A stretch of 64,000 nt of DNA from Zanthoxylum bungeanum (taxonomy: Eukaryota > Streptophyta > Magnoliopsida > Sapindales > Rutaceae). Under the pieces are notes generated by a model. The model worked only from the letters and a program-made list of their open reading frames with translations. It was not told the origin of the DNA and made no database searches. The translations under genes were made by a program, and so were the position numbers. Within the stretch, counting starts at the first letter, position 1. The number at the start of each line of letters is the position of its first letter. The stretch is from the NCBI GenBank assembly GCA_019454045.1, contig SKCR01023430.1, positions 62,001 through 126,000 on the forward strand, given 5' to 3'. Below, piece by piece: positions 5,461 to 57,770 of the stretch.

Positions 5461-5840
5461 TGAATACTGATGGAAGTGGTTGGCAATTGTGGCTTGAGTT
5501 TTTGTATTTGCTAAATCATTTATTTGATTTTTTGAAAATGGAATATTGTGTATTAGATACACAAAATGATAAACAAATACATAACTTCCATCTCTCCCTT
5601 CTTACACACGGTTGGAAAATGTGTCGTCTCTTATGGTATATCGGATGGAAACCCAGACGTAAATTCCGTAGCCGAATCCGAATGGGCGGTAGTGCGGTCT
5701 GTACTTGGGAAACAACTTCACGTACCACTTGAGGAAATGGCACATCTTTCACTTTATTTTATCTTGTTTGTTTATTATTCGCATTTTATATTCCGTCTTT
5801 TACTTTCCGCACGTTTGCTTGTTGTATTGATGATATAGTG
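5461..5840. other. Unassigned stretch after copy A
   Basis: No confident gene. There is an open frame of 90 codons at 5566-5838 (plus), and the part near 5630-5750 has coding-like base composition, but I recognise no domain. It may be the diverged end of the copy A LTR or an older fragment. Confidence 0.3.
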
Positions 5841-5841
5841 C

Positions 5842-6520
5842 GCATGGGCTTAGTATGTTGGTCTAAAGGTTCTCTATTTGAGGGAAGAAAAGTCTAAAAT
5901 GCTACTTTACGACAATACTTTACCGCGCCGGACGAAGTGTGTTTGATTGAATGTGAGATATATTCAATCGAGTATACGAAGTCCTATATTGTTGTCTTTA
6001 TTTTATATGTACTTTGATGTAATGGGCATGAGCTTAGTATGTTGGTCTAAAGGTTCTCTAGTAGAGGGAAGAAAAGTCCAAAAAGCTACCTTTACGACAA
6101 TACTTTGCCGCGCCGGACGAAGTGTGTTTGATTGAATGTGAGATATGTTTAATCGAGTATACAAAGTCCTATATTGTTGTTTTTACTTTCTATGCATTGT
6201 GATGTAATGCTCATGGGCTTAGTATGTTGGTCTAAAGGTTCCCTATTTGAGGGAATAAAAGTCTAAAAGACTACCTTTACCATAATACTTTGCCTCGCCT
6301 TTTATTATTCCGTTATTTACTTTTTTTATATCATCTCCTTGCATAATCATGCATCATATTGTCAAGCGCATGGGTAAATCAATTGGATTAAGGGTCCTCC
6401 ATTTCGAAAATGAAAAGCCTAAGGGCTACCTTTGCCACGATGTTTTACCACGCCGGACAAAGCACGTTCGATTGAACGTAAGATACGTTCAATCGGATAC
6501 TTGAAGTCCTATATAGATGT
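5842..6520. repeat. Tandem repeat, ~184-bp unit, about 3.6 copies
   Basis: Units begin at about 5842, 6026, 6211 and 6368. Each starts near GCATGGGCTTAGTATGTTGG and runs through a segment containing CGCGCCGGACGAAGTG and a stretch rich in TTGAATG and TCAATCGAG. Spacing is about 184, 185 and 157 bases, so the third unit is shortened. It lies in old filler into which Athila F inserted. Such arrays occur in untranslated parts of large gypsy elements of the Tat/Ogre type, but I cannot prove that origin. Confidence 0.75.
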
Positions 6521-6848: not shown

Positions 6849-6853
6849 ATAAG
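6849..6853. repeat. Target duplication ATAAG, left of F
   Basis: ATAAG here and at 29621-29625 flank element F exactly, giving a perfect 5-bp duplication. Confidence 0.9.
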
Positions 6854-7759
6854 TGATCGGAGCGTAAACACACACGTATAACGCAAGCGTACGTATCGTT
6901 CAAGTAGTATAAAAAGTATCGATCCCACGAGGACTTAATACCTAAGCTATTAATTTTATGAGGTCAAATGATTACTAGTATCTAACAGGTTGTTTAATTG
7001 ATTTGAAATGGCAACGATTCTAAATTTAAAGACAAGTAAATAAAATTGTTCGAAAGTAGATTTTAAGAAAATTAAATATTAAAAACTATCTAGGATTGTG
7101 ATTTCTTTGCAATATCATTTTAAATATGAAGTGGTTATCTTATAGCTGGGTAAAATATTGATTTATTAACCTGGAACACTAAATTATGTAAAAGCCTCTT
7201 CCGATGGTCAACTACAAATATCCAGTATATCTAATTGAACCATATGTCTATGTCAACCAAATTACCTAGATTCATTAAGATTAAGTTCCAATTATGGCTA
7301 CCCCCACCCGACATGTATATTCCTATCCTGTAAGGAAATATATTAAAAGGGTTATCTATCCTCAATGAAGATCGTGGGCTATTGAGTCTAAGGTCTTAAA
7401 CTTAAAATCCCTATGTCTAGTTCATTTTAAGTTTACCTAATCAATTTAATTAATGGCCAGTTAATTAAAAAGTATTAAGATTAAGACTCAATAAATAAAT
7501 CTTTATATTACCCAAACTATAATCTAACCCCTTATAAACCGGTGATATTGAAATTCATCACAACCCTAGATACTAACTTAGTTACGACACATAGCTAGGG
7601 CTGGTAAAATAAAAGGCATAAAATAAAAATACTGAAAGTAAATGCGTTAAAGTAAATACTAAAAGGTGAAAATAAAATGCTAAGGTAAAATGAAATAACT
7701 TCTACTATTTACTATTTAGATATCTCCCATAAAATAATATATAAACTTGTGATAATAAT

Positions 7760-7970
7760 ACCAACCGACCAATCTAGCGGTATCCTGATTAAGTCAAATT
7801 AAGTCCAACCAGCCATTAAGGCGGTAATATTTGTCTATAAACCAGCCATAAAGGCGGAACCAAAATTAAATTACTAACCGACCAATATAGCGGTATCCTT
7901 GATTAGTCAGGTTTAAACCAGATTAAAATTAAATTATCAACCGACCAATATAGCGGTATCCTTTTTAAGT
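7760..7970 (-). repeat. Structured short repeats inside the F LTR
   Basis: On the plus strand CCGACCAATATAGCGG (three copies, one with CTAG) alternates with CCAGCCATTAAGGCGG-like units (two copies). Each can fold on a short GC stem. The other LTR repeats them at about 28395-28600, and G keeps a trace near 61370. Confidence 0.65.
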
Positions 7971-8248
7971 CAAATTTTAAATAGTGAATATATTATTTTT
8001 AAGGGAGATTAATCTAAATAGCAATAGTAAAAGAATTAATTTTCACCCTAGCTGGGGAAGTTACCTCCTTATGGTGAATAGTAAAAACTATAAAAGTAAG
8101 AAAGTAAATCTATTATTACATAACGTAATTAAAATTATTACAAAACTAAAAACTAAAATTTAAACGAAACTTAGAGAGAGAAGAACTCCATATTTACATC
8201 AAATAAATGGGAGGGAATGGTACAACAAAATCTGAAATCTCGAGCTGA

Positions 8249-8255
8249 ATTTATA
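8249..8255 (-). promoter_or_regulatory. TATA box of the F LTR
   Basis: TATAAAT on the minus strand followed by TCAGCTCG. Element G has TATAAAT at about 61079 followed by TGAAGCTGAATTCAG, so the box and its downstream context are conserved between two diverged LTRs. ACGTG boxes begin about 90 bases upstream. Confidence 0.55.
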
Positions 8256-8342
8256 AGCCTCGGTGAGGTTCCAGCGTCGCGATGCCAAGGCCTTGGCGTC
8301 GCTACGCCAACTGCAGTTGGCGTGGCATGTTCTGGTTTTGAG

Positions 8343-8709
8343 ACGTGGCAATTCAGACAAGAAGATACGGCCACGTGGCGAGGCGGCTAAGAGCTCAATT
8401 ATTATGCTGACGTGCGATGACGTGGCGCTGACGTGGCAAGGCGGCTGAGATCAATTTTCAGCACCGTAGGATTGCGACATGAGTCACGGTGTGATTGGCT
8501 GATGATGATGTGGCATGTTGACTCTGTTGACCTGCTGACGTGGCTGATGACGTGGCATGACGCATGACAGAGTCGACTCGTTGACCGAATGACGTGGCGA
8601 CATGTAGGACGACACATGGCACACGTGGAAATAGTAATTTTCGGACACCGTAATATGATGACACGTGACACGACTTAAGTTAGTAGCTCGGCTGTGATGG
8701 TGACACGTG
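8343..8709 (-). promoter_or_regulatory. Array of ACGTG (G-box/ABRE-type) cores in the F LTR
   Basis: ACGTG cores start at 8343, 8373, 8410, 8420, 8431, 8538, 8550, 8592, 8623, 8663 and 8705, most as TGACGTGGC or ACACGTGGC. They lie about 90-450 bases upstream of the TATA box in element orientation. ACGTGGC and ACGTGTC are known binding cores of plant bZIP factors; function here is inferred only. Confidence 0.55.
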
Positions 8710-8992
8710 GCACGGTGCATGTTAGCAAAGTCAAACTTCTCAAATTCTGACCCGTTGACCCGACGTACTATAGCAGATGTGGTGCACGTTAGGCGTCGCG
8801 ACAGGCCAAAATTACCGAAATGCCCTTTTTCCAATTTTCACTGTTTTGCTCCAAATCACCTCCAGAATGTCCTGAAACTTTATTTATCTATAAAATAACA
8901 CAAAATACATCAAAACATTCGCAAAAATCAAGAAACTATACAAAATATTAGGATGAATGAGTGAGAAATAGTGATATAAATACCACTCATCA

Positions 8993-9005
8993 CACCCCCA
9001 AACCT
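8993..9005 (-). other. Polypurine tract of F
   Basis: AGGTTTGGGGGTG on the minus strand abuts the 3' LTR. G has the same 13 bases at 60511-60523. Confidence 0.9.
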
Positions 9006-10199
9006 AACATTTTACTAGTCCTCGAGCAAAACATAGAATAAAATAACATAATTAAAATTTAACTAAGCCACTTTAGTAGGGATCACGGTTGCATTTAGCA
9101 TATGTAACAAGCTTTTAAACCCCTAGGTGTCCCTAGTGAACGAGTTGTAGTCTCGTGAGGGTTTACAGCAATGATGCCCACAAACATTTTACAAAAGTAA
9201 AAAGTTAGTTAAAACTAATGCACACAAAAGCAAAAAGACAAGAGAAAAGAGAATAAAGAAGTTAGTGACTACTCAAGTGAAACTTCTATTCCAAGTTACT
9301 AGTTGTTTTGTTTCATTATAAATTTCTGAATAAGTAAATTCTCCGATTATATTTACCATTCTCCATATACACAACCAGCATAATATTAATCAACTTCATT
9401 TTTTCCCACAACAGTCACAAGTATAGTTGATAAGAGAGTAATATTTTTGTCCTAAAGTTTTATCAGATTTCACACATTTTGTAGCAATGGAATAATTTTT
9501 CTAATTTTTTCTTTGATTTTTTATTTATTTATATACAATATCTTCCGTATATGTAGCGAGTGTTGGGTCGGTGGCTCCCAAACCAGTTGGCTTTAGGGCA
9601 CCAGGTGTTAAGACACCCATACGAACTTAATTACTCAGACTTCAGATATATATATTTTTTTGCAGCATCTTTGATCGATATAGCGAGCTTTGGGCCAGTG
9701 ACTCCCAACCAGTTGGTTTTAGGGCACTAGGTGTTAAAACACCCTAACAGACTTAATAACTCAGATCTCGGACGTTTTTTGTTTTTTTTTACTCCACTGC
9801 TTTTTGAGATGCTTCCTCCAATTAAACTAGAGCACTGAATATTACAAACTTTTCAATTTTAGCTCATGTCCGTATGTTTCCATGTATGTTAATAATACAT
9901 GTCAACTGAGCACATGAAGATTCATTTTAGTTAGTGTTATGGAGAATTCACAAATTAAATAATTTAAAAGGAAATAAACAAAAATTAACTTGTTTTGAAA
10001 TAGGTTTGAGATACGTCTCAGGAGTGGAAAATCCTTACTCGGCTATCTTTTACCAATTTCACCTTTTTAGTCAAAACACAAAAACGCAAAATATTTTTGT
10101 AATTTTTGAAAATTTTTCAATTTTTTTGTATTTTTCGAAAAATTTTGAACTAAAAATAAAAACAACATACAACTAAAAACAAGATATTAATCAACTAAT
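9006..10199 (-). other. 3' noncoding region of F
   Basis: About 1.2 kb without a supportable gene lies between the LOG gene and the polypurine tract. It holds a structured tandem repeat at 9541-9780 and A/T tracts near 10060-10150. G has the equivalent at 59263-60510 with recognisable similarity. Confidence 0.7.
9541..9780 (-). repeat. Tandem structured repeat in the F 3' region
   Basis: Two units, about 9544-9648 and 9667-9770. Each has three inverted repeats: GGTGTTAAGACACC or GGTGTTAAAACACC, a loop of the type AACCAGTTGGTT, and TGGG...CCCA. G has the same two-unit array at 59792-60030 with paired base changes in the stems. Confidence 0.75.
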
Positions 10200-10304: not shown

Positions 10305-10958
10305 TTAAAGGTTAAGATCCAGATTAATCCTACGCCTCTGACCACGATCGTCCTCGGACCAATTTATCTTTGAAAGGATAGGGTCAACTCGTGGTTCATA
10401 GGCTATGAGTTGGTCTATTAGATCCGGAGCAGTTCTGGCAGTAAAGAGGAGTTCTTTTAATGGTTTTGACACGAACCCATTTCTCCGAGCATCATCAAGA
10501 AACACACAAAGAAAATCATAAAATCCATCAACGTTGAGCAGTCCAATTGGTTTCTGGTGTATGTTCAGGTTCGCCCAAGATAGCACAATAAAAATTTCCT
10601 CAAATGTACCCAAGCCACCTGGCAAAGCAATAAAAGCATCAGCACAGTTAATCATTTCTACCAAACGTTCAGACATACCTAGCACAATCAATTCCTCTCC
10701 GTTTGATGGTTCAATAAGATTTGCCTCTGCCAAGGGTTTTGGGATGATTCCCAAAACGTGACTGCCTCCTTCCTGTACGGCCTTTGAAACGATCCCCATT
10801 AGTCCAAGATTGCCTCCGCCATATATTAAGTGCATATTTCTTGCAGCTAAGACTCGAACCAATTCCTGTGCTGCTTCTATGTATTGTGGTTTATTACCAA
10901 CACTACTACCGCAAAACACACAGATGTTTTCAACTCGTCTTTTTGAAGTGGCTTCCAT
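10305..10958 (-). CDS. LOG: LOG-family cytokinin nucleotide phosphoribohydrolase-like protein, carried by Athila F
   Basis: An uninterrupted 217-codon frame. The start follows an in-frame leader without similarity and begins MEATSKRR. Readable motifs are ICVFCGSSVGNK at residues ~12-23, the nucleotide-binding IYGGGNLGLMG at ~45-55, the catalytic-arginine region GMSERLVEM at ~93-101 and PGGLGTFEEI at ~111-120, matching the family signature PGGxGTxxE. Length agrees with plant LOG proteins (about 210-220). The family hydrolyses cytokinin riboside 5'-monophosphates to free cytokinin in the cytosol. Cellular plant LOG genes have several introns; this copy has none, suggesting capture through RNA. 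It lies between ORF3 and the 3' LTR in pol orientation, and G has a broken version in the same place. The tail ends LDLNL. Enzyme activity and expression are not shown. Confidence 0.9.
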   Translation of the reverse strand: MEATSKRRVENICVFCGSSVGNKPQYIEAAQELVRVLAARNMHLIYGGGNLGLMGIVSKAVQEGGSHVLGIIPKPLAEANLIEPSNGEELIVLGMSERLVEMINCADAFIALPGGLGTFEEIFIVLSWANLNIHQKPIGLLNVDGFYDFLCVFLDDARRNGFVSKPLKELLFTARTAPDLIDQLIAYEPRVDPILSKINWSEDDRGQRRRINLDLNL

Positions 10959-11010: not shown

Positions 11011-11025
11011 CTGAAAAGAGTGAGT
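11011..11025 (-). promoter_or_regulatory. Candidate 3' splice site ahead of LOG in F
   Basis: ACTCACTCTTTTCAG on the minus strand lies about 50 bases before the LOG start. G has ACTCACCCTTTTTCAG at the same place (about 58498-58513). A pyrimidine tract ending CAG in both copies suggests a spliced subgenomic RNA; no donor was proven. Confidence 0.4.
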
Positions 11026-11191
11026 AAAATAATAGCACTAGTACATGTCAAATGACAATTATTAGTTAAACAAATCATGATAGTCAAAAAGTTCTGGATC
11101 CTGTCCGAGAAAATAAAACAAAACAAATTACAATTATTAGGAAAAGACAAAGAGATATAATATGTACAAGAATTTACAGTTTGATTAACGT

Positions 11192-11740
11192 CTATGTGTC
11201 AGGGACAAACTTCCCATCCAATTTTCTTATAAATTGGCAAACAGGGTCTTTTTGAGTCAGATTCCCGAGACTTAACAGTTGTCTTTCTTTTTGAAATTGT
11301 GTATGTAATTTGCGAAAGGCTATGTGAACATATCCACTGGGATGCGTCTCAAGAGTCGAAGATATATCATCTACAGACTCCTTACTCAAGCCATCCCTAA
11401 TGAATTTAATTTTATCTTCGCGATTATCAGACACCATTCCTAAAGAACGACAACGAGTATTGCAATTCCATCGTGTACATTTGTAACAAACACCCATTTG
11501 CTTAGCTCTATGTTTCTTTACATAGGTGCTTCTTCCAAAACCAGGCATATGTGAAATAAAAGAGTAAGAAGACTCACATGCCAATCGGACTCATGCTTCA
11601 ATTACCCAACGAATATCATTAGGAACACCATGGATTGTTAGTAACCTTATCCGTTCCAAGCGAGCTTTGTAATCTTTCATCAGATATTTTTGAGGGAGAG
11701 AAGGAAATTGCTTGTGAAGATTTGCTAGAGCTTCTTCCAT
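11192..11740 (-). pseudogene. ORF3, unrecognised Athila accessory protein (F copy, one stop)
   Basis: A frame of about 182 codons starts MEEALANLHK at 11740, directly after TCATTTCAG, and ends GKFVPDT. It is broken once by TGA at 11591-11593; G reads through this point with other codons. Readable features are a basic patch RSTYVKKHRAK, a cysteine group with spacing C-x2-C-x4-C-x3-C (near residue 85), the conserved stretch NREDKIKFIRD, and QFIRKLDGK near the end. There is no signal peptide or membrane segment, so it does not resemble an envelope protein. I do not recognise the family. Conservation in both elements points to a function in the element's past. Confidence 0.7.
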
Positions 11741-11878
11741 CCTGAAATGACTTAATCTGCAAAAACTAAACACACAAAATTAAATCACTCCAAATCACAA
11801 TATATACAAGATTTGCATGGGTTTCCTCCCTGTGATCGCTAAGTTTAAAGTCGTCAGCCAAACTTGACTTCTCGAACG

Positions 11879-13010
11879 TTAAGCTGGATCTGCAAGTGTG
11901 ACACTTTCTTTTTGTCGCTCAAATGATTCTCCCCAGTAGTGTTTGACACGCTGACTGTTAACTTTGAATGTGTTGTTGGTGTTAGGATCCAGTAACTCAA
12001 CAGCTCCATAAGGTAAAACATGAGTGATCACAAATGGACCTGACCACCTAGATTTCAACTTTCCAGGGAAAATTTTCAATCTCGAATTGTACAATAACAC
12101 ATGCTGCCTTGGTTCCAACTTTCTGTGAACTAATTTTCGGTCATGCCATTTCTTGGTCTTTTCTTTGTATAATTTGGCATTCTCATAAGCATGTAGGCGA
12201 AATTCCTCCAATTCGTTAAGTTGGTGAAGTCTTTTCTCTCCTGCAGCTTGTGAATCAAAATTCAACTTCTTCAGTGCCCAGTACGCCTTGTGCTCAAGCT
12301 CAACTAGTAGATGGCACGCTTTCCCAAACACCAATCGATATGGGGACATACCAATGGGTGTCTTGTAAGCTGCACGGTAGGCCCATAATGCATCATCTAG
12401 TTTTATTGACCAGTCCCTCCTTGTTGATCCAACGGTTCTTTCTAGGATTCTTTTGATTTCTCTGTTTAAAACCTCAACCTGTCCATTTGACTGTGGATGG
12501 TAAGATGTGGCAACCTTGTGAGTAACTCTGTATTTGGATAGGAGTGCATCGAAGTATCTGTTACAGAAATGAGAGCCATCATCACTGATAATTGCCCGAA
12601 GTGTTCCAAACCGAGTGAAAATGTTCTTTTTCAGGAATTTGATCACCACTTTTGAATCATTGGATGGTAGTGCAATTGCTTCAACCCATTTGGAGACGTA
12701 GTCTACAGCAACCAAGATGTACATGTTTCCAAATGATGGAACAAAAGGTCCCATGAAATCAAAACCCATACATCAAATATTTCCACTTCTAGAATGTTTT
12801 GCAACGGTCCTTCGTTTCTCCAGGAAATATTTCCCGTTCTCCGGCACATGTCACATTGAAAAGAAAAAATATAAGCATCTTTAAAAAGAGTGGGCCAAAA
12901 CAAACCTGATTGTATGACTTCGGCTGCAGTTTTGTTTCCGCTGAAGTGTCCGCCATATGATGATGAATGACAGTACTACAAAACACTGTTGATTTCCTCA
13001 TGTGGAACAC
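11879..13010 (-). pseudogene. pol: Athila F integrase
   Basis: The integrase catalysed insertion of element DNA. The longest piece, 11879-12769 (296 codons), holds the whole catalytic core: Asp in VAVDYVSKW, Asp in IISDDGSHF, Glu in [10 protein letters not shown], followed by the C-terminal region [12 protein letters not shown] and [12 protein letters not shown]. The zinc-binding N-terminus (CDMCRRTG readable) lies upstream in another frame: there is a stop just after 12976 and a frameshift near 12770. It ends about 140 bases before ORF3. Confidence 0.88.
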
Positions 13011-14414
13011 GTCGTCTCAATAATTGATCAGCACACTGTTTGAACAGGTACGGTTCATCCCAGACATAGTGCTTGACTTCTTTGAATAACTTCTTCCGTT
13101 GTTGAGTTGTCCATTCCAACTGCCATTTTCCTGACACAATGTAGTTGACAAAGTCAGCATACCAAGGGACTTCCTGTTGTTTCATGGAAAACAGTTGTTC
13201 ATCTGGAAAAGTTTCTTTGATTGACAGTTCTTTGCCAGCTGTTTCTCTATTTTCGAGCCTCGATAGATGATCTGCCACCTGATTCTCTGTTCCTTTCCTG
13301 TCTCTGATCTCCACGTCGAATTCTTGCAGAAGAAGTATCCAACAGATCAATCTGGGTTTTGCATCTTTCTTTGTGATCAGATATTTGATTACTGAATGAT
13401 CTGTGTAGACCACCACTTTGGGACCTAGCAGATAGGAACGAAATTTGTCAAAAGCATACACAACTGCGAGCAACTCCTTTTCAGTGGTTGTGTAGTTGAG
13501 TTGAGCTTCATTCAAAGTTCTGCTGGAGTAGTAAATGGTGTGGAAAATCCTTGCTTTACGTTGTCCCAAAACTGCACCTAGAGCAAAATCACTAACATCG
13601 CACATCACTTCAAATGGAAGGGTCCAGTCTGGTGCTACAATGATGGGGGCGGATACCAGCTTCTGTTTTAAGATTTCAAAAGCTTCCTGGCATTCTTTGT
13701 TGAAGTGGAAAGGCACATCCTTCTCCAGAAGATTGCATAGAGGTTTAGCAATCTTGGAAAAGTCTTTGATAAATCTCCTGTAAAAACCTGCATGTCCAAG
13801 AAAACTTCGAATACCTTTAACTGATGTTGGTGGAGGTAGTTTTTCAATTGTCTCTATATTTTCTTTGTCTACCTCAATCCCCTTTTGTGAGATCTGGTGT
13901 CCAAGAACAATGCCTTCTTGCACTATAAAGTGGCATTTCTCCCAGTTGAGTATCAGGTTCGTATCTTCGCACCTTTGTAACACCTGTTCCAAATTTTACA
14001 AACAATGATCAAAAGAATCTCCAAATATAGAAAAGTCATCCATGAAAACCTCCATACTCTGCTCTAGCATGTCTGAAAAAATGGCCATCATGCAACGCTA
14101 AAAAGTGGCGGGGGCATTATATAATCCAAATGGCATCATGCGGAAAGAAAAAGTAACATAAGGACATGTAAATGTGGTTTTCTCCTGATCTTCTGGGGCG
14201 ATGGAAATCTGATTGTATCCTGAATATCCGTCTAGAAAGCAATAGAACTCATGTCCTGCCAGTCTGTCTAACATCTGGTCAATAAATGGTAACGAAAAAT
14301 GGTCTTTTCTCATGGCTTTGTTCAGTTTTCGGTAATCCAGTCACCGTTCTTGTCGGAATCAATTCGTTCTTTTCATTAGTGACCACAGTAATTCCTCTTT
14401 TCTTTGGCACACAC
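12976..14414 (-). pseudogene. pol: Athila F reverse transcriptase and RNase H
   Basis: From the edge of the B insertion, the frame resumes with CVPKKRGITVV. It then loses a few codons near 14338, and continues with palm motifs DGYSGYNQI, FRMMPFGLYNAPATF, a stop at 14098-14100, and the catalytic FMDDFSIFGDS box (FMDD in place of YVDD, as usual in Athila). A second stop lies near 13998. The 338-codon piece 13992-12976 carries [11 protein letters not shown], the RNase H residues TDHSVIKYL and the linker to integrase. At least three lesions make it inactive. Confidence 0.88.
14410..14414. repeat. Target duplication CACAC, left of B
   Basis: CACAC here and at 24683-24687 flank copy B exactly. Confidence 0.9.
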
Positions 14415-15472
14415 TGTTGGATAATATGACCCATAGCGTCACTATTTGTACAGATCACGGTGTTGTTGTACAAATTAACTATGTGACAAGGAAATTGCAC
14501 TCTCATCATTTGTGATTAGATCACCATAGATGTAGAAATGAAGAGAGGTCCATATGATTAGCTCCTGGATTGAGATGATATGAGACAGTATCATCCCCGA
14601 AGGATTAATCATTAAATATCCATAGCTGGAGTATTATCGAGACTGGACATCGATAATGCGGAAAAGGCTAGTATTGCACTTGTGCGCGTTGTGAGGGCAC
14701 AACGGCATAGTTCTCATATATTTAAGTATTGGATACTTATGCAAGTACAATAAGAGGTTGTGTTTCACTGATGGTACGAGAAACAGCTTCGCTCTGGATA
14801 GACCCCTCGGAATCCCATTGGTATTATGACTATGTGTCTATGGGAGGCCGAAATCAAGGTAGGTGTGTATAGTCTTAACCTGAGACTTACATCGCTAATA
14901 CTTGCGATAATCGGTAGACTTTGGTCTTGGTGGTACAGGGCTTAAACCGGTTCTGCGTACACCGCTTCCGGGTTTATCAGAGAGTCGTAGTGTATTGGGT
15001 GTGATGTCGAGACGGAAGTATCACTTCAGTCATAGTGGAGATGATGTCACGCAGGATACGGTATTAGTGCTCTTAAGTGCTGCGCGGCCGTCGGGATATT
15101 ATGACAAGGTCATGTATATCCGATTATAGAGACTAGTTACCAGACATCCGACATGTGCTTCGGACGGGGCAGACACTTATCCAGCCCCAGCCCTAGCACG
15201 TGACTATCCGATACTGGGCCGATATACACAATACTACGGTATACTACGCTTGATACAGATCTATATATTCCTGTAAGAATATTTCTGGAGAATTGGGTAG
15301 GCATGGCGCTTTGCTAGAAGCCAACCTTGTCTTGTAAATCGGTATAAACGTAGTACGAGGTACTTACGTGTTCGGATAATCCGAAGACCGTATTTACTGC
15401 CAACATATCCAGAGATCTCATGGGTCGCTTCCTGAAGATTCACCGATGATGTATAACTCGCACTTTAATTAA

Positions 15473-15705
15473 TCTGGGATTAATTGGAAGAGAGAGAAAA
15501 TTAATCTGGGATTAATTGCGGAGATATTTTATCTGGGATAAAATATTAATTAAAGAGAGAGAACAATTAATTTGGAATTAATCAATAAAATAATATATTC
15601 GATATATTATAAGAAATTGGATTTCGACGTGGAATTAAAATTAGATTTTAATTCGGGCGAACGAATTAATTTAGAATTAATTCGTTAGCGACGTAAATAG
15701 TGATT
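15473..15705 (+). repeat. Palindrome ladder in the B 5' LTR
   Basis: Successive short inverted repeats stand nearly end to end: AATTAATCTGGGATTAATT (twice), ATATTTTATCTGGGATAAAA, ATTAATTTGGAATTAAT, ATATATTCGATATAT, GAAATTGGATTTC, GAATTAAAATTAGATTTTAA and GAATTAATTTAGAATTAATT. The same series stands in the LTRs of A, C and D. Confidence 0.8.
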
Positions 15706-16039
15706 TCGTTAGGCGTAATCATTTAATTACGACGCGACGGAAAATTCGTTAATTTGGAATTAGCAAACCCGAGCCCGAGAGTGATTGCGAGCGCATTCGC
15801 ATTTCGAATTAGAGCGCGGCACGCAGTCACATCAAGCTCAAATCGTTAGTCACATCATGCGTCAAATCAATTGTCACTTTGAGTGATGTGACTTGACAAC
15901 ATGTCACTTTATTAAAGTGATGTGATGTGACTTAAAGTAAAGGAAAATGATGAAAAGCATTAATAGACTTTTGCTTTTTTAACTTTTGATATTGAAAAAT
16001 GATTTAGATATTTGTTTTTGTTTTTGAAATAAAAATAAA

Positions 16040-16048
16040 TATATAAAC
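16040..16048 (+). promoter_or_regulatory. Candidate TATA box of the B LTR
   Basis: TATATAAAC is followed by a CT-rich stretch ending CACTCACCACTCA, a typical plant transcription start context. The 3' LTR repeats it at about 24215. Confidence 0.45.
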
Positions 16049-16549
16049 CAATATCATTTTCTCCTCTCACTCACCACTCATGGTCTCTTCCCTCTTTTTC
16101 CCTCTTCTCTCCTTCATTCTTCTCCTTCAATCCCTCAAGCCGATTTTCTTCTCACATCTGTCTTTTTTTTTTCGGTTACGAATTTGTAAGGTTAGACCGA
16201 ATGTTTGGAAGCAGACCGAAATTGAGAAGCAAATGAAGATAGTAGTGCTAGCACACACATGGGTTATATTATGTGATAGGGAAACGAATTTGTGAGCTTG
16301 GAAAGCTTGAAGCTTGAAGCTTCAATGGAGTCTCCCATGGCCGAATCTTGGAGGAATTTCACAGCCCCAAAACCGAGTAGTCTAGCATTCACAGGACCAA
16401 AACCGAGCAACATGCAGTGGAAAATGGGTCTTGTTCTTCCTTCATCAAAACCGTTCAATGTGAGTATGATTCCGCACCTCATTTGATCTGTTCATACTCA
16501 TTTTTTATGCATGTTTGTGATCCTTGGGACTTGATTTTAAACTCTACAA

Positions 16550-16563
16550 TGGTATCTTGAGCT
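16550..16563 (+). other. Primer binding site of copy B
   Basis: TGGTATCTTGAGC follows the LTR by one base and resembles the initiator tRNA-Met complement TGGTATCAGAGC, with two altered bases. Confidence 0.75.
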
Positions 16564-19440
16564 ATTGGTTGCATAAAAACGAATTAGGGTTCTTGAGCTA
16601 AATTTGGGGCTTTTTGATTTAAGCATGATTTTGACAAATTGTTTGTTTAAGAATGCTTGTATATGAATTAATTAGAGTTATATGTAATCAATTTGATGAA
16701 AAATTAATTGGATTGATTTTCCCCAATTTACTTAATGTTGGCCAAAACTTTAATTTGGGAAAACTCAATTTGAGCATCAAATGATTAAATTGTTTAGTAT
16801 AGTATGCTTGAATGAGGTTGAATTGATGTTGTGCATAATCAATTTCATGAAATTTGGTTGGATCCATTTTTCCCTAAATTTTGGGCATGACAAATTTGGG
16901 TAAACCTGATTTTGAGCATGTTTAATGAAATTGGATGATTTAGAATGCTTGAATGTTGTTTAATTGATGATTGATTAGATCAATTTGATGAAAAGTGTTT
17001 GGAACAATTTTTCCCCAATTTGCTTGTGATGGCCGAATTTGGCAAGTGCCCTAATGTCTTGGTTTTTTGATTTTTTGTTCATTGGATGACTTAGAAATCA
17101 TTTGGGGATGTTGAATTTATGTTTGATTGGGTTCAATTGGATTGAATTTGATTTGGGCATAATTTCCCTCTTTGGCCGAGACTTTAGCATGTATAAATTG
17201 GGTTTGATTTTGATTTAATTATGTTGGACATGATTAATTGATGATAAGCATGATTAATTGGACAAATTTAGTGTTTTGGAAACTTTGATTTGGATAATTA
17301 ATAATGCTATACACTTTAGGTAATTTAATTGGAAAATTTGGAATTTTTGGAATTAAATTATTGGGCTTAAAATTGGATTTGGGCTTTTTAAGTTGTTATT
17401 GGGTTAATTGGACTTTGTTGTACAAAGTTGGTTTAGGCCAAAATTGGTTGGATCCAATTAGGCCCAAAACCGCTTCCAAAAGGCCCAAATGCACTAATAA
17501 ACCTTTAACGTTTAATTGGGCGGGCCTAAATTAATTTATGGGCTTATGGGGTAACTCCCGGATTGGACTTGGGTTGCGGTTTGACCCGAGTTGACCAAAA
17601 GTCCACGCCTCAAGAAATTAATTAAAAGCCCATTGGAATTTAATTAAATTAATATTGGATATTAATCGGGCTTTGAGACCGTAGCGATTAAATTTGGAAT
17701 TTAAATCGTAAAGGTTTATTTTATAAAGTGTAATATTTAATTTGGAATTAAATAATGAATTAAAATTAAATGCGTATTAAATTGGATTTAATTATGTAAT
17801 TTAATTTAATTCGTAGAAATCGTACTTTGAGTACGTGTTCGCAATACGAGTTTGACTCGAACAAAATCAAATCTTGTTTGAACATTGGATGATCACTAAT
17901 TATCAAGATTAATTAATTTGATTGATTGATTGATAACATGCTTGTATGAATACATGGTTGTGATGTTTGAATAATGTATATCGGATGGATATTAGCCGGG
18001 TGGGGCGATTTTAGGAATTGTTGTAATAAATTTGATTTATTAATTGGACCTGCGTGTCCAGCCTTATCTCCTATTTCTTTGTATTCTCTTCTCACCTATT
18101 CCCCTCTATGTATATGAGGTTTCTTTAGAAGTGTAGTGTAACGGGTAGAAGAAATATTAGTGCAAGCGGGAGAGAGAAAGTGAGAGATTTGATCTAGGAT
18201 CAATGTAAAATATCCATCCGCATATCATTATTATTTTATTTCATATACTCGCTTTATTATGTGTTTAGAATGCATGCTTAAGGGTGTATGATGATGAGAC
18301 CTTAACAAAGATAATAAATTGGTATCCAATTTGCACGCGAAAAGCCCTCATAAAATATCATGGCGTCTTTTCCTTCCATTGAGTGATTCTTACTCAAGAT
18401 CCTAGATTGGCATGGGTTGTTGGCCAAAGTCAAGCCCTTGTCCGTCGAAGATGTGTTTGAATCACGAGTTTTGTTCCATATCGGTGTCGTGTCCAAGTTG
18501 TGGTTTGTTGGCCAAAGTCAAGACCACTTCTTGTCCATTGACATTGATTACGAAGCTTCCATGTCAATGGGTCCGCGCTTGACTGGGATCACTAGGTTTG
18601 TTGTGCCAAAGCCAAGGCCTAGTTGATTCAGAGGAAAAAGGTTAGGGTATACATTCGATGTATAGGCATATATAAGATATATGTTTGGGACTTGGATGTC
18701 CACCTACTGGATCTAGGAGTTGGATGAGATCCAATTGATCTTCGAGATCTACCTAGTTAATTATCATACAATTTGTTGGCCAAAGTCAAGATTGTGTGAT
18801 ATTTAACGGGATCCTAGCCCACTAGGAAACACGGTTTCCCGAGTACTCGACAGAGGGTTAGAGGCTCGACGAAAAATAGTGGGAGGCAAGAATTGAATTT
18901 GCAATACTCGTTCAATTACTCGCCATACGCGCTCATTTAAATTATTTCGTCATTAGATTAAATGTTAGTTAGACTAATATTTAAATTGTTGTTTTAATAA
19001 ACAGTTGGACTGTATTATACTTGATTATATATAATTGGATTATATCAATCAATATATTTGAATTAATTAATTTCAGTTTACAGTTGATTTTATAATTGGA
19101 TTATAATAATCAATGTAATTGAGGTTAATTAATTTGGATTATATTTGATTATATAGTTGGACTATTATAATCATTATAATATATATAGTACCACTAATCG
19201 TTGATTAAATAGTTGGACTATTGTAATCAAGATAAAATTGAAAAGTTGGATATTTAAAATATAATCTGGGATTAAAATATTTTAAATGATTTAATTTTCA
19301 AATTGGGAATAAATAATAGGTTACTTTATTTGATAAAATAACTTATTATACCTTTAAGCCCAAAATTAAGCAAAATAAGTAGAGCATAAAATCTTTGGAA
19401 GATTTATGTGATGATGACTTTAATGCTTAATTTAATATAC
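16564..19440 (+). other. Untranslated leader of copy B
   Basis: About 2.9 kb with no credible gene. It holds a low-complexity stretch of degenerate repeats around TTTCCCCAATTT and GAATGCTTG (16600-17300), more short AT palindromes (17600-17860), four spaced GCCAAAG units (18423-18785) and the TTGGACT repeat block (18965-19225). A candidate splice acceptor ending AACAG lies near 19012. Confidence 0.6.
18417..18800 (+). repeat. Four spaced GCCAAAG units in the B leader
   Basis: GCCAAAG starts at 18423, 18511, 18605 and 18779, mostly as TTGTTGGCCAAAGTCAAGA. Spacings of 88, 94 and 174 bases are close to those in copy C (90, 94, 178). Confidence 0.7.
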
Positions 19441-22400
19441 TTGTCATAAATCTAATTTTAGATTTAAGAAGTATTAAAATTGTAATTTATAATTCTTGGA
19501 GAATTAATTGACTATTCTAGAGGAGATAAAGTCAAAGTTTGCAATTGGGCATGTAGCACGAGGTGCACATCGTTTCGATATTCTAAAAACCCAAGGCTTG
19601 GCCTAAGGTTTCTGAAATATTGAAAAGGATAATTGACATATCCCAAAGTGACTACCATTTGGATATGGCAGACACGAAGAAATTAAAGAAAAGGCAAGGC
19701 TCTTACTTTGAAAATGTTTGTCTTAGTTATGTTCACAGCTAGTATTGAAATTAGATTTTAAATACTTAGTGTGGTACATAAAATATATGTATTGATATTC
19801 AGAATCTGCTTTGAGCAGGATACTGACTTCAAGCTGAGATTTCTCTGCGAATAGGAAACGAGACGAAAGTCGCTGTTTCGACCGTAGATACCTAAGTTTA
19901 GGAACTACCCTTCGGGTATGTACTTAAATTAGGAACTGTTATAATGTAACTAGTTTGACTAGAGACATTATCTCTATATCAGTGTTTAATCCGTTGCGGA
20001 TAAAACCTTTATATTATAGAACACTAAGTGTTTTATTATATAAAGATGATACTGAGATAAATACATTAGATGTAAATAACAGAATTTATATTTTGAATAT
20101 AATAAAATCTCAAACATATAAAATGACAAATAAATAGCTCAAATTGATTTGATCAATAGAGACTTATTTTTGGCATTGTTGTCTGGGACACAATTATACA
20201 AGACTCGTATATCCACACTTTTGAAGAGTGGGTACCAGGAATTTGACTATTCAAATAAAGTCTACGAATCTAGTTTGTTAGGTAAAGTACCTAAAACACT
20301 GTTTACTTGGTAATAGTGTAAGTGACACGATCTGTTAGCCCTATTCATGGTGAAGTTAGTGGGCCCATATCTAGCTAGGCTAGATGTGAACATGAATATT
20401 TCGTGACCTTAACGGATGTGGCATCACGTTATGGTTATGTGTTTCTTTTGAAGAACACAAAATCAGAAACTTTTAGAGTTTCGACACGAAATAGACAAAC
20501 AGATCGGCTATAGTATTATACCGTCACGGTAAGACCGTAATGGAAAATACTTAAGCAATAAGTTTCTTATATACTTGAAAGAGTATAGTATTCTTTCAAA
20601 TGAGGACTCCTCCCGGAACACGTCAAAGTGACGGTGTGTCCGAACGGATTAACCGAATCATGTTAGACATGATAAGGCTAATCATGAGTCGCTCTGAGCG
20701 CCATTTCCTTCAACGGATAAGTTTTAACAGTGCAATAACTTATTTAGAATAAGGTTCCATAATGATCTGTTTGACAGATTACATATTAGATATGAACGGG
20801 AAAGAAACGGGTTTCTCATTCCTGATAATTTGGGTATGCCAGGCATAACGTTTGGATGATACCAAACTAAGGACCCAAATTGGATAAGTGCCATTATAGG
20901 TTATCCTAAGGGAAACCATAAGTATAGTACTTATAAATCTCACATGAGAACAATGTGATTGTTGCTCACCATGCGGTTTTTCCTGAGAGGAATACCGATA
21001 TGCAATGGTCAGTGGGAGGATAGTGATACTCGATGAAAATCGGAGTAATATTGTTCAAGGCACGAAGTCCTTAATGGAACACAAATAGTTCATCTATGAT
21101 GAATCTATACCATTAATCTTCGAGTACACAAGAACCGCGTAGATCAAAGAGAGTCAGAAAACAACCTAGGGTATGGGTTTCTGATCTCATCTCATAAAGA
21201 TGTTAATCTTTTAAAGTACACCAACTGATTACGTTTGAGGTAGTGATACAAGGTATCGACTCCCTATTATGACAAAGTGTCATGAGTCCAAAATGGATTC
21301 CATGTATATCAACAAGTTTGGATACTAGTTGATGTACCATAAGGCATTGTGCCCATTGGTACTTTATAAGTCTTCAAGGAAGACATACATGGAAGGCAAC
21401 ATACCAACTACTAAGCTAGGCTTGTATAGAAAAAGTAGAGTTATCAACATTGTGTTGATTACGACGAAACCTTTTACCTGTTGCCATTGTAAATCCATTT
21501 GGATAATGCTTGCTAAAGCTGTGTATTTCATTTATGAAATATGACAGCTTAACGGAAAATCGCTTTCCTGAAAAGGAAACCTTTCGGAGGATGTTTATAA
21601 CATCCTGTCGGTTTTATCGTACCATAACAAGCAAACAAGGTTTGCAGGTTATTCGATCCATGTTTAGATTGAAGCAAGCATAGGTTCTAGGAATTGTCGT
21701 TTTGATGTAATCATAATGGAGTATGATTTAATTCAAAACGAAATGATTCTTGTGTATATAAAGGGGTAGTGGGAGTGCACTGACATGAATGTCCTGTAAA
21801 ATAATGATAATATGTCATTTTTTGGAATGAAATCCCATAAAGCAATCGGTGAAAGCTTGGCTTTCATAAGAAATTCTCCGTAGAATTCTGGGGAGTAACA
21901 ACCTTTATTCAAGGAATAAAGATCTACTGGGATAGATTTGGAGTTGTTAACACTCTTGGGAATTGTACATTTAAAATGTACTTGTATTGGTGTCTCATAC
22001 GCTTCGAGCATATGGAGTCACAATCGGATCAATCCAAGTGATAGTCACTGGATTGAAGATTAAGGACATCTATTAGTATCTTGGAGAACTAAAGATGCTG
22101 TCTTAAATATGGAGTAGGAGAACTTGAAGTGACTAGGATCACTGCTGCAAGTTTCCAAACCGGCAAATACTGCGGTACTATAAAGTTTGAACAACGGGAC
22201 AGTAAGCTGGAAATATTCCGAGCAAGATAACTGTTTCCGAATTAACAACAAATGCGGATTATTGCTGCAGCTGAGGCAGCAATAGAAGCCATTTGGATCG
22301 ATAATAAATCTAATTAGATTAGATATAGTTCTTTTAGCAACTGAGCTAGGCGTCAGCACAGGCTAAGGAATTAAAGGTCTCATCGACGATCCAGATATAT

Positions 22401-22520
22401 ACTTCTATATTCATCTGATTCGTACGGATCATACATCGTGGCGATGTGATGATCGTATAAATCGTGTCAGAAGATAATTACGCAAATCCGCTGACGAAAA
22501 TCTTTCCTCAGCAATTTGAG
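19440..22520 (+). pseudogene. Copy B gag-pol remnant
   Basis: The remnant aligns throughout with the gag-pol of copy C but has no long frame; the gag start codon region reads ATAAAA. Integrase, reverse transcriptase and RNase H stretches are recognisable (for example GCAGCTGAGGCAGCAATAGA near 22264). Bases near 22341-22362 lack the RNase H stretch encoding YCDNN, exactly as in copy A. No piece could give a functional enzyme. Confidence 0.82.
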
Positions 22521-22571
22521 CGAACCGTACATAGTTCGGGTGTTAGACACTCGAGTGACTGGCTATGTGCC

Positions 22572-22582
22572 AAGTGGGAGAT
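22572..22582 (+). other. Polypurine tract of copy B
   Basis: AAGTGGGAGAT abuts the 3' LTR. Confidence 0.88.
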
Positions 22583-24682
22583 TGTTGGATAATATGACCC
22601 ATAGCGTCACTATTTGTACAGATCACGGTGTTGTTGTAAAAATTAACTATGTGACAAGGAAATTGCACTCTCATCATTTGTGATTAGATCACCATAGATG
22701 TATAAATGAAGAGAGGTCCATATGATTAGTTCCTGGATTGAGATGATATGAGACAGTATCAATCCCGAAGGATTAATCATTAAATATCCCTAGCCGGAGT
22801 ATTATCGAGACTGGACATCGATAATGCGGAAAGGCTAGTATTGCACTTGTGCGCGTTGTGAGGGCACAACGACATAGTTCTCATATATTTAAGTATTGGA
22901 TACTTATGCAAGTGCGATAAGAGGTTGTGTTTCACTGATGGTACGGGAAACGCTTCGCTCTGGATAGACCCCTCGGAATCCCATTGGTATTATGACTATG
23001 TGTCTATGGGAGGCCGAAATCAAGGTAGGTGTGTATAGTCTTAACCTGAGACTTACATCGCTAATACTTGCGATAATCGGTAGACTTTGGTCTTGGTGGT
23101 ACAGGGCTTTAACCGGTTCTGCGTACACCGCTTCTGGGTTTATCAGAGAGTCGTAGTGTATTGGGTGTGATGTCGAGACGGAAGTATCACTTCAGTCATA
23201 GTGGAGATGATGTCACGCAGGATACGGTATTAGTGCTCTTAAGTGCTGCCGGCCATCGGGATATTATGACAAGGTCATGTATATCCGATTATAGAGACTA
23301 GTTACCAGACATCCGACATGTGCTTCGGACGGGGCAGACACTTATCCAGCCCCAGCCCTAGCACGTGACTATCCGATACTGGGCCGATATACACAATACT
23401 ACTACGGTATACTACGCTTGATACAGATCTATATATTCCTGTAAGAATATTTCTGGAGAATTGGGTAGGCATGGCGCTTTGCTAGAAGCCAACCTTGTCT
23501 TGTAAATCGGTATAACATAGTACGAGGTACTTACGTGTTCGGATAATCCGACGACCGTATTTACTGCCAACATATCCGGAGATCTCATTGGTCGCTTCCT
23601 GAAGATTCACCGATGATGTATAACTCGCACTTTAATTAATCTGGGATTAATTGGAAGAGAGAGAAAATTAATCTGGGATTAATTGCGGAGATATTTTATC
23701 TGGGATAAAATATTAATTAAAGAGAGAGAACGATTAATTTGGAATTAATCGATAAAATAATATATTCGATATATTATAAGAAATTGGATTTCGACGCGGA
23801 ATTAGTAAAATTAGATTTTAATTCGGGCGAACGAATTAATTTAGAATTAATTCGTTAGCGACGTAATAGTGATTTCGTTAGGCGTAATCATTTAATTACG
23901 ACGCGACGGAAAATTCGTTAATTTGGAATTAGCGAACCCGAGCCCGAGAGTGATTGCGAGCGCATTCGCATTTCGAATTCGAGCGCGACACGCAAGTCAC
24001 ATCAAGCGTCAAATCGTTAGTCACATCATGCGTCAAATCAATTGTCACTTTGAGTGATGTGACTTGACAACATGTCACTTTATTAAAGTGATGTGATGTG
24101 ACTTAAGTAAAAGTAGAAATGATGAAAAGCATTAATAGACTTTTGCTTTTTTAACTTTTGATATATGAAAAATGATTTATATATTTGTTTTTGTTTTTGG
24201 AAAATAAAAATAAATATATAAACCAAATATCATTTTCTCTCTCTCACTCACCACTCACGGTCTCCTCCTTTTCCCTCTCTTTTCATCTTCTTCTCCTTCA
24301 CGGCTTCAAGCCGATTTTCTTCTCAAAATCTTTTGGTTAGACCGAAATTTTGAGAAGCAAATTGAAGATGAGTAGTGCTAGCACACACATGGGTTATATT
24401 ATGGTGATAGGGAAACGAATTTGTGAGCTTGAAAAGCTTGAAGCTTGAAGCTTCAATGGAGTCTCCCATGGCCGAATCTTGGAGGAATTTCACAGCCCAA
24501 AACTGAGCAGTCTAGCAGTTCACAGGACCAAAACCGAGCAACATGCAGTACGAAAATCGGTCTTGTTCTTCCTTTCATCAAAACCGTTCAATGTGAGTTA
24601 TGATTCCGCACCTCCTTTGATGTGTTCATACTCGTTTTTTATGCATGTTTGTGATCCTTGGGACTTGATTTTAAACTCTACA
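22583..24682 (+). repeat. 3' LTR of copy B
   Basis: Matches 14415-16548 with scattered substitutions and small indels. It is about 34 bases shorter. The palindrome ladder recurs at about 23636-23865. Confidence 0.93.
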
Positions 24683-24937: not shown

Positions 24938-25696
24938 CTACTCCAATGTTAGTGAAGAAGAAATAATAACAGGTAATTCAGAAGAGTTTCCAAGAAATGC
25001 ATACCTGAGATGGCTCGGAAGTAACTTCAGCTCCAACTGTGGTGGTTCTTCAATCGAAGGCTTGATTCGATCTTTCTTTGGCAATTCCAAGCTTTCAACT
25101 GGTGGTGTTGCTTTGAATCGGAATGGTTTGTCAAGGTAGTTGATACATTCCAGGATTTCAGCATCTAGCTCACTATCAATCATGTTGGTGATGCAAGCTT
25201 CAAGTGTATCTGTGGGATTTGGCTCATTATTTTGAACGATACTTTCAACAACATCAACTCTGAAGCATTCTTTTTCCTTTTCATCACTCGGGAATTTCAT
25301 GGCTTTGAAAACATTAAAGGTCATTTCTTTGTCCTGCACTTTCATTGTCAATTCTCTTTTTTGCACATCAATCACAGTTTTACCTGTAGCCAAGAATGGT
25401 CTCTCAAGTATGATAGGTATTTCTTTGTCTTCTTCTATGTCAAGGATGATGAAATCTGCTGGAAGAATTATTTTGTCTACTTTCACCAGCACATCTTCAA
25501 CAACACCTCTTGGAAATGCAAGTGTTCGATCAGCAAGTTGCAATGAAACTGAGGTAGGCATTACTTCTCCAATTTGCAGTTTCCTGTAAATAGAAAAAGG
25601 CAACAAGTTAACACTAGCACCTAAATCACATAAAGCCTTACTGATATAATGTTCTCCAATGGTGCATGGAACTGTGAAACTGCCATGATCTTTCAA
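24938..25696 (-). pseudogene. pol: Athila F protease and linker to reverse transcriptase
   Basis: An open stretch of 252 codons, part of the gag-pol reading. The aspartic protease active site is ALCDLGASVNLLP; DLGA replaces the common DTGA, as in Athila. PIILERPFLATGKTVIDV forms the flap and second strand region; the usual glycine before RPFLAT is glutamate here, while G keeps glycine. The remainder is the acidic linker before reverse transcriptase. This piece is whole, but the polyprotein around it is broken. Confidence 0.87.
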
Positions 25697-27471: not shown

Positions 27472-27489
27472 TCCCCGACAACGGTGCCA
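27472..27489 (-). other. Primer binding site of F
   Basis: TGGCACCGTTGTCGGGGA on the minus strand, five bases from the LTR. It matches the tRNA-Asp complement TGGCGCCGTTGCCGGGGA apart from two G/C to A/T transitions at CpG or former CpG positions. This primer is usual for Athila. Confidence 0.85.
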
Positions 27490-29620: not shown

Positions 29621-29625
29621 ATAAG
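29621..29625. repeat. Target duplication ATAAG, right of F
   Basis: Matches 6849-6853. Confidence 0.9.
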
Positions 29626-33256: not shown

Positions 33257-33261
33257 CATGT
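33257..33261. repeat. Target duplication CATGT, left of C
   Basis: Matches 43523-43527. Confidence 0.92.
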
Positions 33262-41543: not shown

Positions 41544-41554
41544 AAGTGGGAGAT
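41544..41554 (+). other. Polypurine tract of copy C
   Basis: AAGTGGGAGAT abuts the 3' LTR. Confidence 0.9.
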
Positions 41555-51837: not shown

Positions 51838-52332
51838 TGATAAGCGGTAAATATATCAATATTTACCGCCCATTTTGACTTAATATTTTATATAGTTTCT
51901 TGAGTTTTGTGTATATTTTGATGTGTTTCGTGTTATTTTATAGATAAATAAAATAACAAGACTATGTGAAATCAAATCAGGGCTTAAACGGTGAAAAATC
52001 TGATAAAAATGGGCAAAATTGGAATTGTTTGTCACGACACGCAACACTTCTGCATCGCGACCGCTAACGTGCGTCAGACACGTGTCAAAATCAGAGAAAC
52101 TTGCTATCATGCGCACTTGCTAACATGCGCATGCCACGTGTCAACATCACAACAATCTTGCTAACATGCGCCGGACATGTGTCATCATCTCATGCTGCCG
52201 ACAATACAAGTCATTACTGATATCAGGGTCGCGATGCGCTCAACCTTCTATGTCGCGACGCCGAGCAAATAAATTTACCGACAGCCACATGTCAAAATCA
52301 CGTTGAATCAGTGGCGCATTCATAATTTTACC
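51838..52332 (+). repeat. 5' LTR of G, truncated, with PBS lost
   Basis: Opens TGATAAGCGGTAAATATATC and follows the 3' LTR to about AGTGGCGC (52315), then joins leader sequence equivalent to F at about 27410. The rest of the LTR, TATA box and primer site are deleted. The first bases can fold as GCGGTAAATAT/ATATTTACCGC. Confidence 0.85.
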
Positions 52333-57640: not shown

Positions 57641-57770
57641 GTCATGTCCAGCTGACGACGTTAAACTAAGCGCTAGAGCAATGAGGCAACCCATGTATTT
57701 TGTATATAAATTCAGATTTGGTGTTTTATTTCTGTGTGTTTAATTTTTGTAGGTAAAGTCACATTTCAGG

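Follow-up and report, generated by a model that had tools for sequence, protein, structure and literature searches.

The 64,000-nucleotide stretch of Zanthoxylum bungeanum DNA analysed here (the window) contains two retrotransposons, F and G, with LONELY GUY (LOG)-type sequences. Element F, an Athila-type LTR retrotransposon split by a nested Copia, occupies positions 6854–29620 on the minus strand and is flanked at both ends by the target duplication CTTAT (6849–6853 and 29621–29625). Its 5′ LTR (27495–29620, minus) and 3′ LTR (6854–8992, minus) are 93.3% identical, with a K2P divergence of 0.055; at the plant substitution rates generally quoted, which we assume to apply, the insertion would be about 2–4 My old. 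A PBS, TGGCACCGTTGTCGGGGA (27472–27489, minus), lies immediately internal to the 5′ LTR, and a PPT-like run, TTTGGGGGTG (8993–9002, minus), abuts the 3′ LTR. The nested Copia (14415–24682) has a CACAC duplication at both ends, and its LTRs (14415–16548 and 22583–24682) are 94.2% identical. On the minus strand, F also carries a protease-region ORF (24938–25696; a weak RVP_2 match, E 0.007, under the cut-off), an RNase H region of pol (12976–13992; RT_RNaseH, E 3.1e-34), and an integrase ORF (11879–12769; rve, E 1.9e-14) in which Pfam found no chromodomain. The PBS, the PPT, the 5-bp duplication, and the position of integrase as the last pol domain mark F as an LTR element and are common to other Ty3/Gypsy lineages; the name Athila is a presumptive label that follows the sequence-only reading.

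The LOG-derived ORF of F (10305–10958, minus) is intact and 217 codons long, and it lies within the element, 3′ of integrase and in the orientation of pol. It is a single, intron-free open frame, and the plus-strand frame at the same positions contains many stops. The protein matched PF03641 (E 3.8e-35) and PF18306 (E 3e-16), and its best relatives of solved structure were At2g37210 (E 1.6e-58) and At5g11950 (E 5.1e-49), far above chance. It carries PGGLGTFEE, an instance of the PGGxGTxxE motif. Of the 120 relatives listed, 108 had this motif in its strict form, which requires E or D at the last position, and some of the misses were fragments. The claim of the sequence-only reading that a full-length, intronless LOG ORF with LOG motifs lies inside the LTRs in pol orientation was therefore borne out, on the minus strand. 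A LOG gene external to the element was ruled out by the LTRs, target duplication, PBS, and PPT of F.

A second accessory ORF of about 182 codons, absent from the sequence-only reading, sits between integrase and LOG (11192–11740, minus). In F, its translation contains one stop, and its family match comes from relatives. A protein search returned 184 homologues at E ≤ 1e-3, and PF01623 (Carla_C4) was found in each of the 120 listed; the hosts named among the matches listed were Xanthoceras, Acer, Rhamnella, Orobanche, and Citrus. Within an alignment of 47 members, Carla_C4 matched 43 (best E 1.7e-7) and Viral_NABP (PF05515) matched 41 (best E 1.1e-8), and none of six shuffled controls matched. 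The frame in G was above the curated cut-off for PF01623 and not above that for PF05515; among four relatives checked, PF01623 passed in all four and PF05515 in three. We refer to the product as the CRP-like protein. At least 90% of the 47 sequences conserved GxSxxxKKRRAK and four cysteines (CxxC-x4-C-x3-C), that is, an NLS-like basic cluster (KKRRAK) followed by a zinc-finger-like Cys block. The cysteine-rich proteins (CRPs) of carlaviruses and related flexiviruses, to which these two families belong, likewise have a basic NLS-like cluster right before the Cys block, whereas the element's protein is encoded by an LTR retrotransposon, is about 182 residues long, and has conserved N- and C-terminal parts. 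According to PMC12172455, viral CRPs combine an NLS with a zinc finger; RNA silencing is suppressed by several of them, and p12 of chrysanthemum virus B acts as a transcription factor that induces hyperplasia.

The AlphaFold model of a CRP relative had low confidence (pLDDT 68.8, pTM 0.34), so the evidence for a relationship to viral CRPs is that of sequence profiles spanning about 30–85 residues. Solved structures compared with the CRP profile gave chance-level matches only, and a search of IMG/VR gave no confirmed locus. The low-confidence fold and the short, modest matches (best E ~1e-8) fit an ordinary nucleic-acid-binding protein of retrotransposons, whose likeness to viral CRPs would come from recurrent basic clusters and zinc fingers. 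We hold this alternative to be improbable, if respectable: two independent families match, several members exceed curated cut-offs, shuffled sequences do not match, and the order of basic cluster and Cys block is the same. Annotated gene models showed the same gene order in other plants: P0182 (Rhamnella) joins the integrase C-terminus to the CRP, P0225 (Rhamnella) joins CRP and LOG, and P0240 (Citrus) joins the CRP to part of a LOG without the catalytic stretch. A literature search on the family names Carla_C4 and Viral_NABP and on carlavirus together with retrotransposon returned no relevant paper, and on this basis we treat the ORF as not in print.

Element G, on the plus strand, is an older and broken copy. 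Its 5′ LTR piece (51843–52317) and 3′ LTR piece (60535–61026) are 77.8% identical, with a K2P of 0.12 on 450 sites. The sequence-only reading had placed a LOG homologue in the same slot of G; it is present there (58581–59207, plus) but broken, being recovered as three tblastn pieces with one stop, and its damage comprises a stop close to the start, an insertion near residue 46, and a break of the frame near residue 150. The CRP-like ORF of G (57734–58318, plus; Carla_C4, E 1.6e-5) has its first ~25 codons out of frame, and the alignment showed two of the usual four cysteines replaced.

The Z. bungeanum assembly (3.96 Gb, 51,709 contigs) was searched for further copies. The LOG search gave 70,322 first-look candidates, of which the best 150 were scored; all matched and covered all or nearly all of LOG, and 135 had no internal stop, in a set biased towards intact copies by its ranking. 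Thirty LOG-sampled loci, one being F itself, were examined for their surroundings. The order integrase–CRP–LOG was found in 29 (all except L026), and LOG was followed by the start of a 3′ LTR in 29 (all except L027). Asking how many LOG hits lie between integrase and a 3′ LTR had been proposed with the sequence-only reading, and in this genome both flanking features were present at 28 of the 30 loci. A second sample of 30 loci, drawn with the G CRP frame as query and including G itself, had LOG downstream in 27; no LOG was found downstream of the CRP in L040, L047, and L056. In these CRP-sampled loci, an unbroken frame was left in 5 of the 27 LOG copies and 4 of the 30 CRP copies. Most copies are dead, as expected for a transposon. 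With all of the best 150 of 70,322 candidates matching and 27 of 30 CRP-sampled loci carrying LOG, the earlier statement that LOG is held across copies is supported.

Selection was estimated as pairwise dN/dS (NG86/JC) in loci not chosen by the gene under test, and the estimates are rough. Across all pairs of CRP-sampled loci, the dN/dS of LOG fell from 0.84 (dS 0.05–0.1, 8 pairs) to 0.37 (dS 0.4–0.6, 86 pairs) and went back up to 0.58 in the most distant bin (dS 0.6–2, 27 pairs), a departure from the trend that perhaps reflects misread pairs. The corresponding values for CRP in LOG-sampled loci fell from 0.85 to 0.35. With disjoint pairs ordered from close to distant, LOG in CRP-sampled loci gave 0.67 (only 3 pairs, p 0.06), 0.55, 0.43, and 0.42 (last bin p 2.6e-46), CRP in LOG-sampled loci gave 0.52, 0.46, 0.41, and 0.38, and integrase gave 0.82 (3 pairs), 0.44, 0.41, and 0.43. 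Disjoint pairs of CRP in CRP-sampled loci, which were chosen by CRP itself, ranged from 0.73 to 0.33. LOG in LOG-sampled loci gave 0.09–0.14, values that we did not use as evidence because these copies were ranked by LOG similarity. Constraint that is weaker among close than among distant copies is the pattern shown by genes under selection in the transposing lineage that decay in dead copies, and the constraint on LOG and CRP among distant copies was similar to that on integrase. These results support the conclusion that LOG and CRP are both kept by selection acting on the element.

The 3′ end has also moved between elements. In L002, L005, L006, L023, and L025, the upstream part of integrase was just 42–75% identical to F, whereas from about 30–40 codons before the integrase stop onward the identity was 81–98%, except in one LTR bin (74%) and in short last bins. 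Two control loci, L007 and L029, were 93–97% identical to F throughout integrase. When four of these five loci were compared with 25 others, the mean integrase distance was 0.263 and the LOG distance was 0.031. Thus, in these loci the CRP–LOG–3′ LTR end has become attached to a different backbone, each time near the same position, perhaps by template switching.

An 84-residue AtLOG3 probe gave 150 scored matches among 44,112 candidates in the same genome. Twenty loci (L061–L080) were fetched, and all were LOGs of the type found in the elements (TE-type); the candidate second, more canonical LOG family that they had seemed to represent turned out to belong to this one TE family. Exons of host LOG genes did not come up in the own-genome search because they were swamped by TE copies. 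Integrase and CRP lay upstream in 6 of the 20 loci, and neither was found within 1.3 kb in the other 14, with a single weak protease-region match in L070. LOG was unbroken in 7 of these 14. Two pol-less loci were read up to a 5′ LTR: L065 with L081 (3561–6101) and L066 with L082 (1571–4101). Both showed an LTR, the PBS TGGCGCCGTTGCCGGGGA, a zinc-knuckle-like ORF with no convincing Pfam match, and then an open LOG within 2 kb; integrase, RT, RNase H, protease, and gag pieces of F or G had no match in L081 or L082. Outside the probe region, the dN/dS of LOG in the pol-less loci was 0.27 (7 disjoint pairs, p 3.7e-32; 184/618 synonymous and 198/2073 nonsynonymous), in a sample that was ranked by LOG similarity and in which 2 of 14 loci were traced to an LTR. 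LOG is thus constrained where pol and CRP are gone. LOG was missing from 3 of 30 CRP-sampled loci and CRP from the 1.3 kb around LOG in 14 of 20 probe loci, so joint action of the two genes is not required.

These data also bear on the idea that LOG is a passively transduced passenger, functionless for the element. Captured host genes are common in LTR elements (PMC7264820), and 22 of the 27 LOG copies in CRP-sampled loci are broken. We nevertheless almost entirely discount this idea, given a dN/dS well under 1 among distant copies and in pol-less loci and given a single LOG clade with a shared derived pocket and tail, as described below.

In a 69-row tree, F, the G piece, the own-genome copies, and three environmental proteins formed one group (16 rows, 100/100), which does not support separate captures of LOG by F and G. 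None of the outcomes that the sequence-only reading had named as counting against it, namely independent captures, a lack of further copies, or a LOG outside the element, was observed. In this tree, the LOG portions of the gene models from Rhamnella and Citrus had long, unsure branches. A 57-row tree separated 20 host LOGs (98/97), including LOG1 and LOG8 of Xanthoceras, from the TE-type LOGs, which formed a group of 33 rows (98/94), or of 36 rows (93/88) once Xanthoceras proteins and their kin were counted in. Proteins of Populus, Paulownia, Reevesia, and Diplodiscus, placed by protein sequence alone, also grouped in the TE-type clade. Rapid evolution may make this clade look deeper than it is.

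Active-site residues were mapped onto the plant proteins via AtLOG3 from the LOG of C. glutamicum, for which the published account (PMC4979012) gives a proposed prenyl/adenine site that includes His97, Lys100, and Glu125 and catalytic Arg99 and Glu122. At pocket positions Met96, His97, Lys100, Glu125, and Trp129, F has Met, Ser, Leu, Ile, and Trp. With the catalytic residues included, F reads M-S-R-L-E-E-I-W, whereas canonical plant LOGs read M-H-R-K-E-E-E-W in all 120 of the best listed AtLOG3/AtLOG8 profile matches. Among 120 listed TE-type LOGs, Lys100 and Glu125 were each lost in 112 (canonical 0/120), and His97 was retained in a minority; both Lys100 and Glu125 were kept in P0011, P0017, P0032, P0035, P0037, P0038, P0041, and P0074. 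Three of these (P0011, P0017, and P0032, from Xanthoceras) are gene models with repeated LOG domains and a canonical pocket, and they are possibly host genes nearest the TE clade. In the same list, Arg99 was kept in 108 and Glu122 in 117. F has both residues, as do all 30 LOG-sampled copies from its own genome; of the 27 CRP-sampled copies, 15 have Arg at the Arg99 position, 2 have another residue, and 10 could not be read there. The 12 listed proteins without the catalytic Arg mostly have Gln instead, and in P0007, P0009, P0010, P0013, P0015, P0025, and P0026 the frames with this Gln are otherwise open.

The C-terminal tail is a further derived feature. LxLxL occurred in the last 14 residues of 82 of 98 listed TE-type proteins of 200–260 residues and in 0 of 120 canonical LOGs, and a basic cluster preceded the C-terminal end in 90 of 98 and 1 of 120, respectively. 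LxLxL is one EAR consensus (PMC6283911 and PMC9956375), and pathogen effectors with an EAR motif or TOPLESS binding are known (PMC7446885 and PMC8126959). The tail of the TE-LOG may act as an EAR/TOPLESS-binding motif, with the caveat that short LxLxL motifs arise easily. Compared with the plant LONELY GUY enzymes AtLOG3 (At2g37210) and AtLOG8 (At5g11950), the TE-LOG shares PF03641/PF18306, a length of about 217 residues, PGGxGTxxE, and the catalytic Arg and Glu, whereas it differs in its changed prenyl/adenine pocket, its basic and LxLxL tail, and its many retrotransposon copies. By sequence, the TE-LOGs are one clade distinct from host LOGs, in which the fold motifs and catalytic residues are kept and the base/prenyl pocket is changed.

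The plain label "cytokinin-activating" given to the gene in the sequence-only reading is not supported, as His97, Lys100, and Glu125, kept in 120 of 120 canonical LOGs, are Ser, Leu, and Ile in F. In the corresponding model, an ordinary LOG would raise free cytokinin and promote meristem cell division and thereby transmission. The LOG fold, PGGxGTxxE, and the catalytic Arg and Glu of F, together with the constraint on LOG, agree with this model. However, of the five residues proposed to form the prenyl/adenine pocket, three are changed in F, as they are in the TE-type clade generally, and the tail suggests the nucleus; moreover, Ala substitutions of the AMP-binding and catalytic residues of the C. 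glutamicum LOG, taken as a set, nearly abolished activity (PMC4979012). The cytokinin model is thus weakened, and we regard it as unlikely. The retention of Arg99 and Glu122 in F means that some phosphoribohydrolase activity is possible, and the absence of the Arg in 12 of 120 weakens the reading as an enzyme. At the other extreme, the TE-LOG could be a non-catalytic scaffold, a dimer whose sole task is to display the basic/EAR tail, or one for which nucleotide binding serves as a switch. The losses of Lys100, Glu125, and, in some members, Arg99, and the conservation of the tail, point this way; yet Arg99 and Glu122 are kept more often than a pure scaffold needs, and a scaffold role also seems unlikely to us.

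We consider the balance about even for the following explanation: F represents an Athila-type lineage that carries a host-directed two-gene cassette at its 3′ end, a CRP/NABP-related protein followed by a LOG-derived protein. The TE-LOG has probably ceased to be an ordinary cytokinin activator and is probably located in the nucleus. Both proteins would be made from 3′ mRNAs, by splicing or from an internal promoter, and would influence the host from within the nucleus. Like viral CRPs, the CRP-like protein could bind nucleic acid and dampen silencing or alter transcription. The LOG protein could bind or hydrolyse some nucleotide outside the usual cytokinin set, and its tail could engage TOPLESS-type corepressors; the cell would then be biased towards the expression and transmission of the element. 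A more specific version is a long shot: a nuclear effector cassette would combine a virus-type silencing suppressor with a LOG whose pocket serves another nucleotide, perhaps one of defence or signalling, and whose EAR tail hijacks TOPLESS, and the retention of LOG even by pol-less elements would make it a selfish or host-shared effector gene in many copies.

An amplified plant retrotransposon lineage keeps two recognisable proteins whose relatives point to RNA control for one and to nucleotide, hormone, or corepressor biology for the other. If the proposed functions hold, the lineage would offer a concrete, testable case of transposon-encoded effectors and a link between retrotransposons and flexivirus CRPs, and some annotated cytokinin-activating enzymes (e.g., Rhamnella P0225) would be transposon genes with a different active site.

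Steinbauerova et al. 2011 reportedly described Athila-like elements with LOG-type extra ORFs. PMC9289625 reports a YgdH/LOG domain in Ty3/Gypsy consensuses of Citrus and in Populus and credits that study; the sequence-only reading, which knew of no described Athila lineage with such a gene held across copies, is therefore not supported on this point. Those elements resemble ours as Ty3/Gypsy elements with a LOG-type extra domain; relative to that account's section on these elements, the CRP-like ORF, the selection test, the pocket change, the tail, and the pol-less derivatives are added here. The same source describes Ty3/Gypsy elements of orchids that encode an AlkB m6A demethylase. That case resembles ours in that a retrotransposon carries an additional enzyme with a proposed role against host control, but the enzyme, the host, and the element are all different. 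The additional ORFs known from other plant LTR retrotransposons are also sense ORFs beyond gag-pol, with an NLS or silencing role proposed for some (PMC7264820, PMC11728184), including RNA-silencing modulation for those of sunflower Tekay/Athila (PMC11728184); LOG or carlavirus-type homology is not reported in the passages of these papers that were considered. A systematic survey of extra ORFs used a minimum of 250 codons (PMC6317226), and both the CRP-like and LOG ORFs would therefore be passed over. In sum, LOG in Athila-like elements was already known; what is added here is the CRP-like partner, the constraint on both genes, the single derived LOG type with its pocket and EAR-like tail, the module exchange between backbones, and the pol-less carriers.

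Candidate expression signals precede both ORFs of F. A U-rich tract ending in GCAG (11757–11775, minus), a possible 3′ splice site before CRP, was seen by eye in 7 of 7 printed copies, and a pyrimidine tract ending in CAG (11011–11030, minus), a possible 3′ splice site before LOG, has its motif in 51 of 57 copies. TATAAAT was present 5′ of LOG in 52 of 54 copies. These signals would allow either spliced 3′ mRNAs or transcription from an internal promoter, and their conservation does not decide between the two because the spacer is similar throughout.

Self-comparison of the window revealed further repeats. A tandem pair of ~130-base units, hairpin-capable by eye, lies between LOG and the 3′ LTR in both F (9524–9785, minus) and G (59777–60041, plus). 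Tandem repeats with units of about 150–190 bases occur elsewhere in the window at 5823–6520 and 35317–35791. Two repeat pairs, 30407–32957 with 47439–49978 and 33261–35232 with 41554–43522, are 96–98% identical and are probably the LTRs of younger nested insertions.
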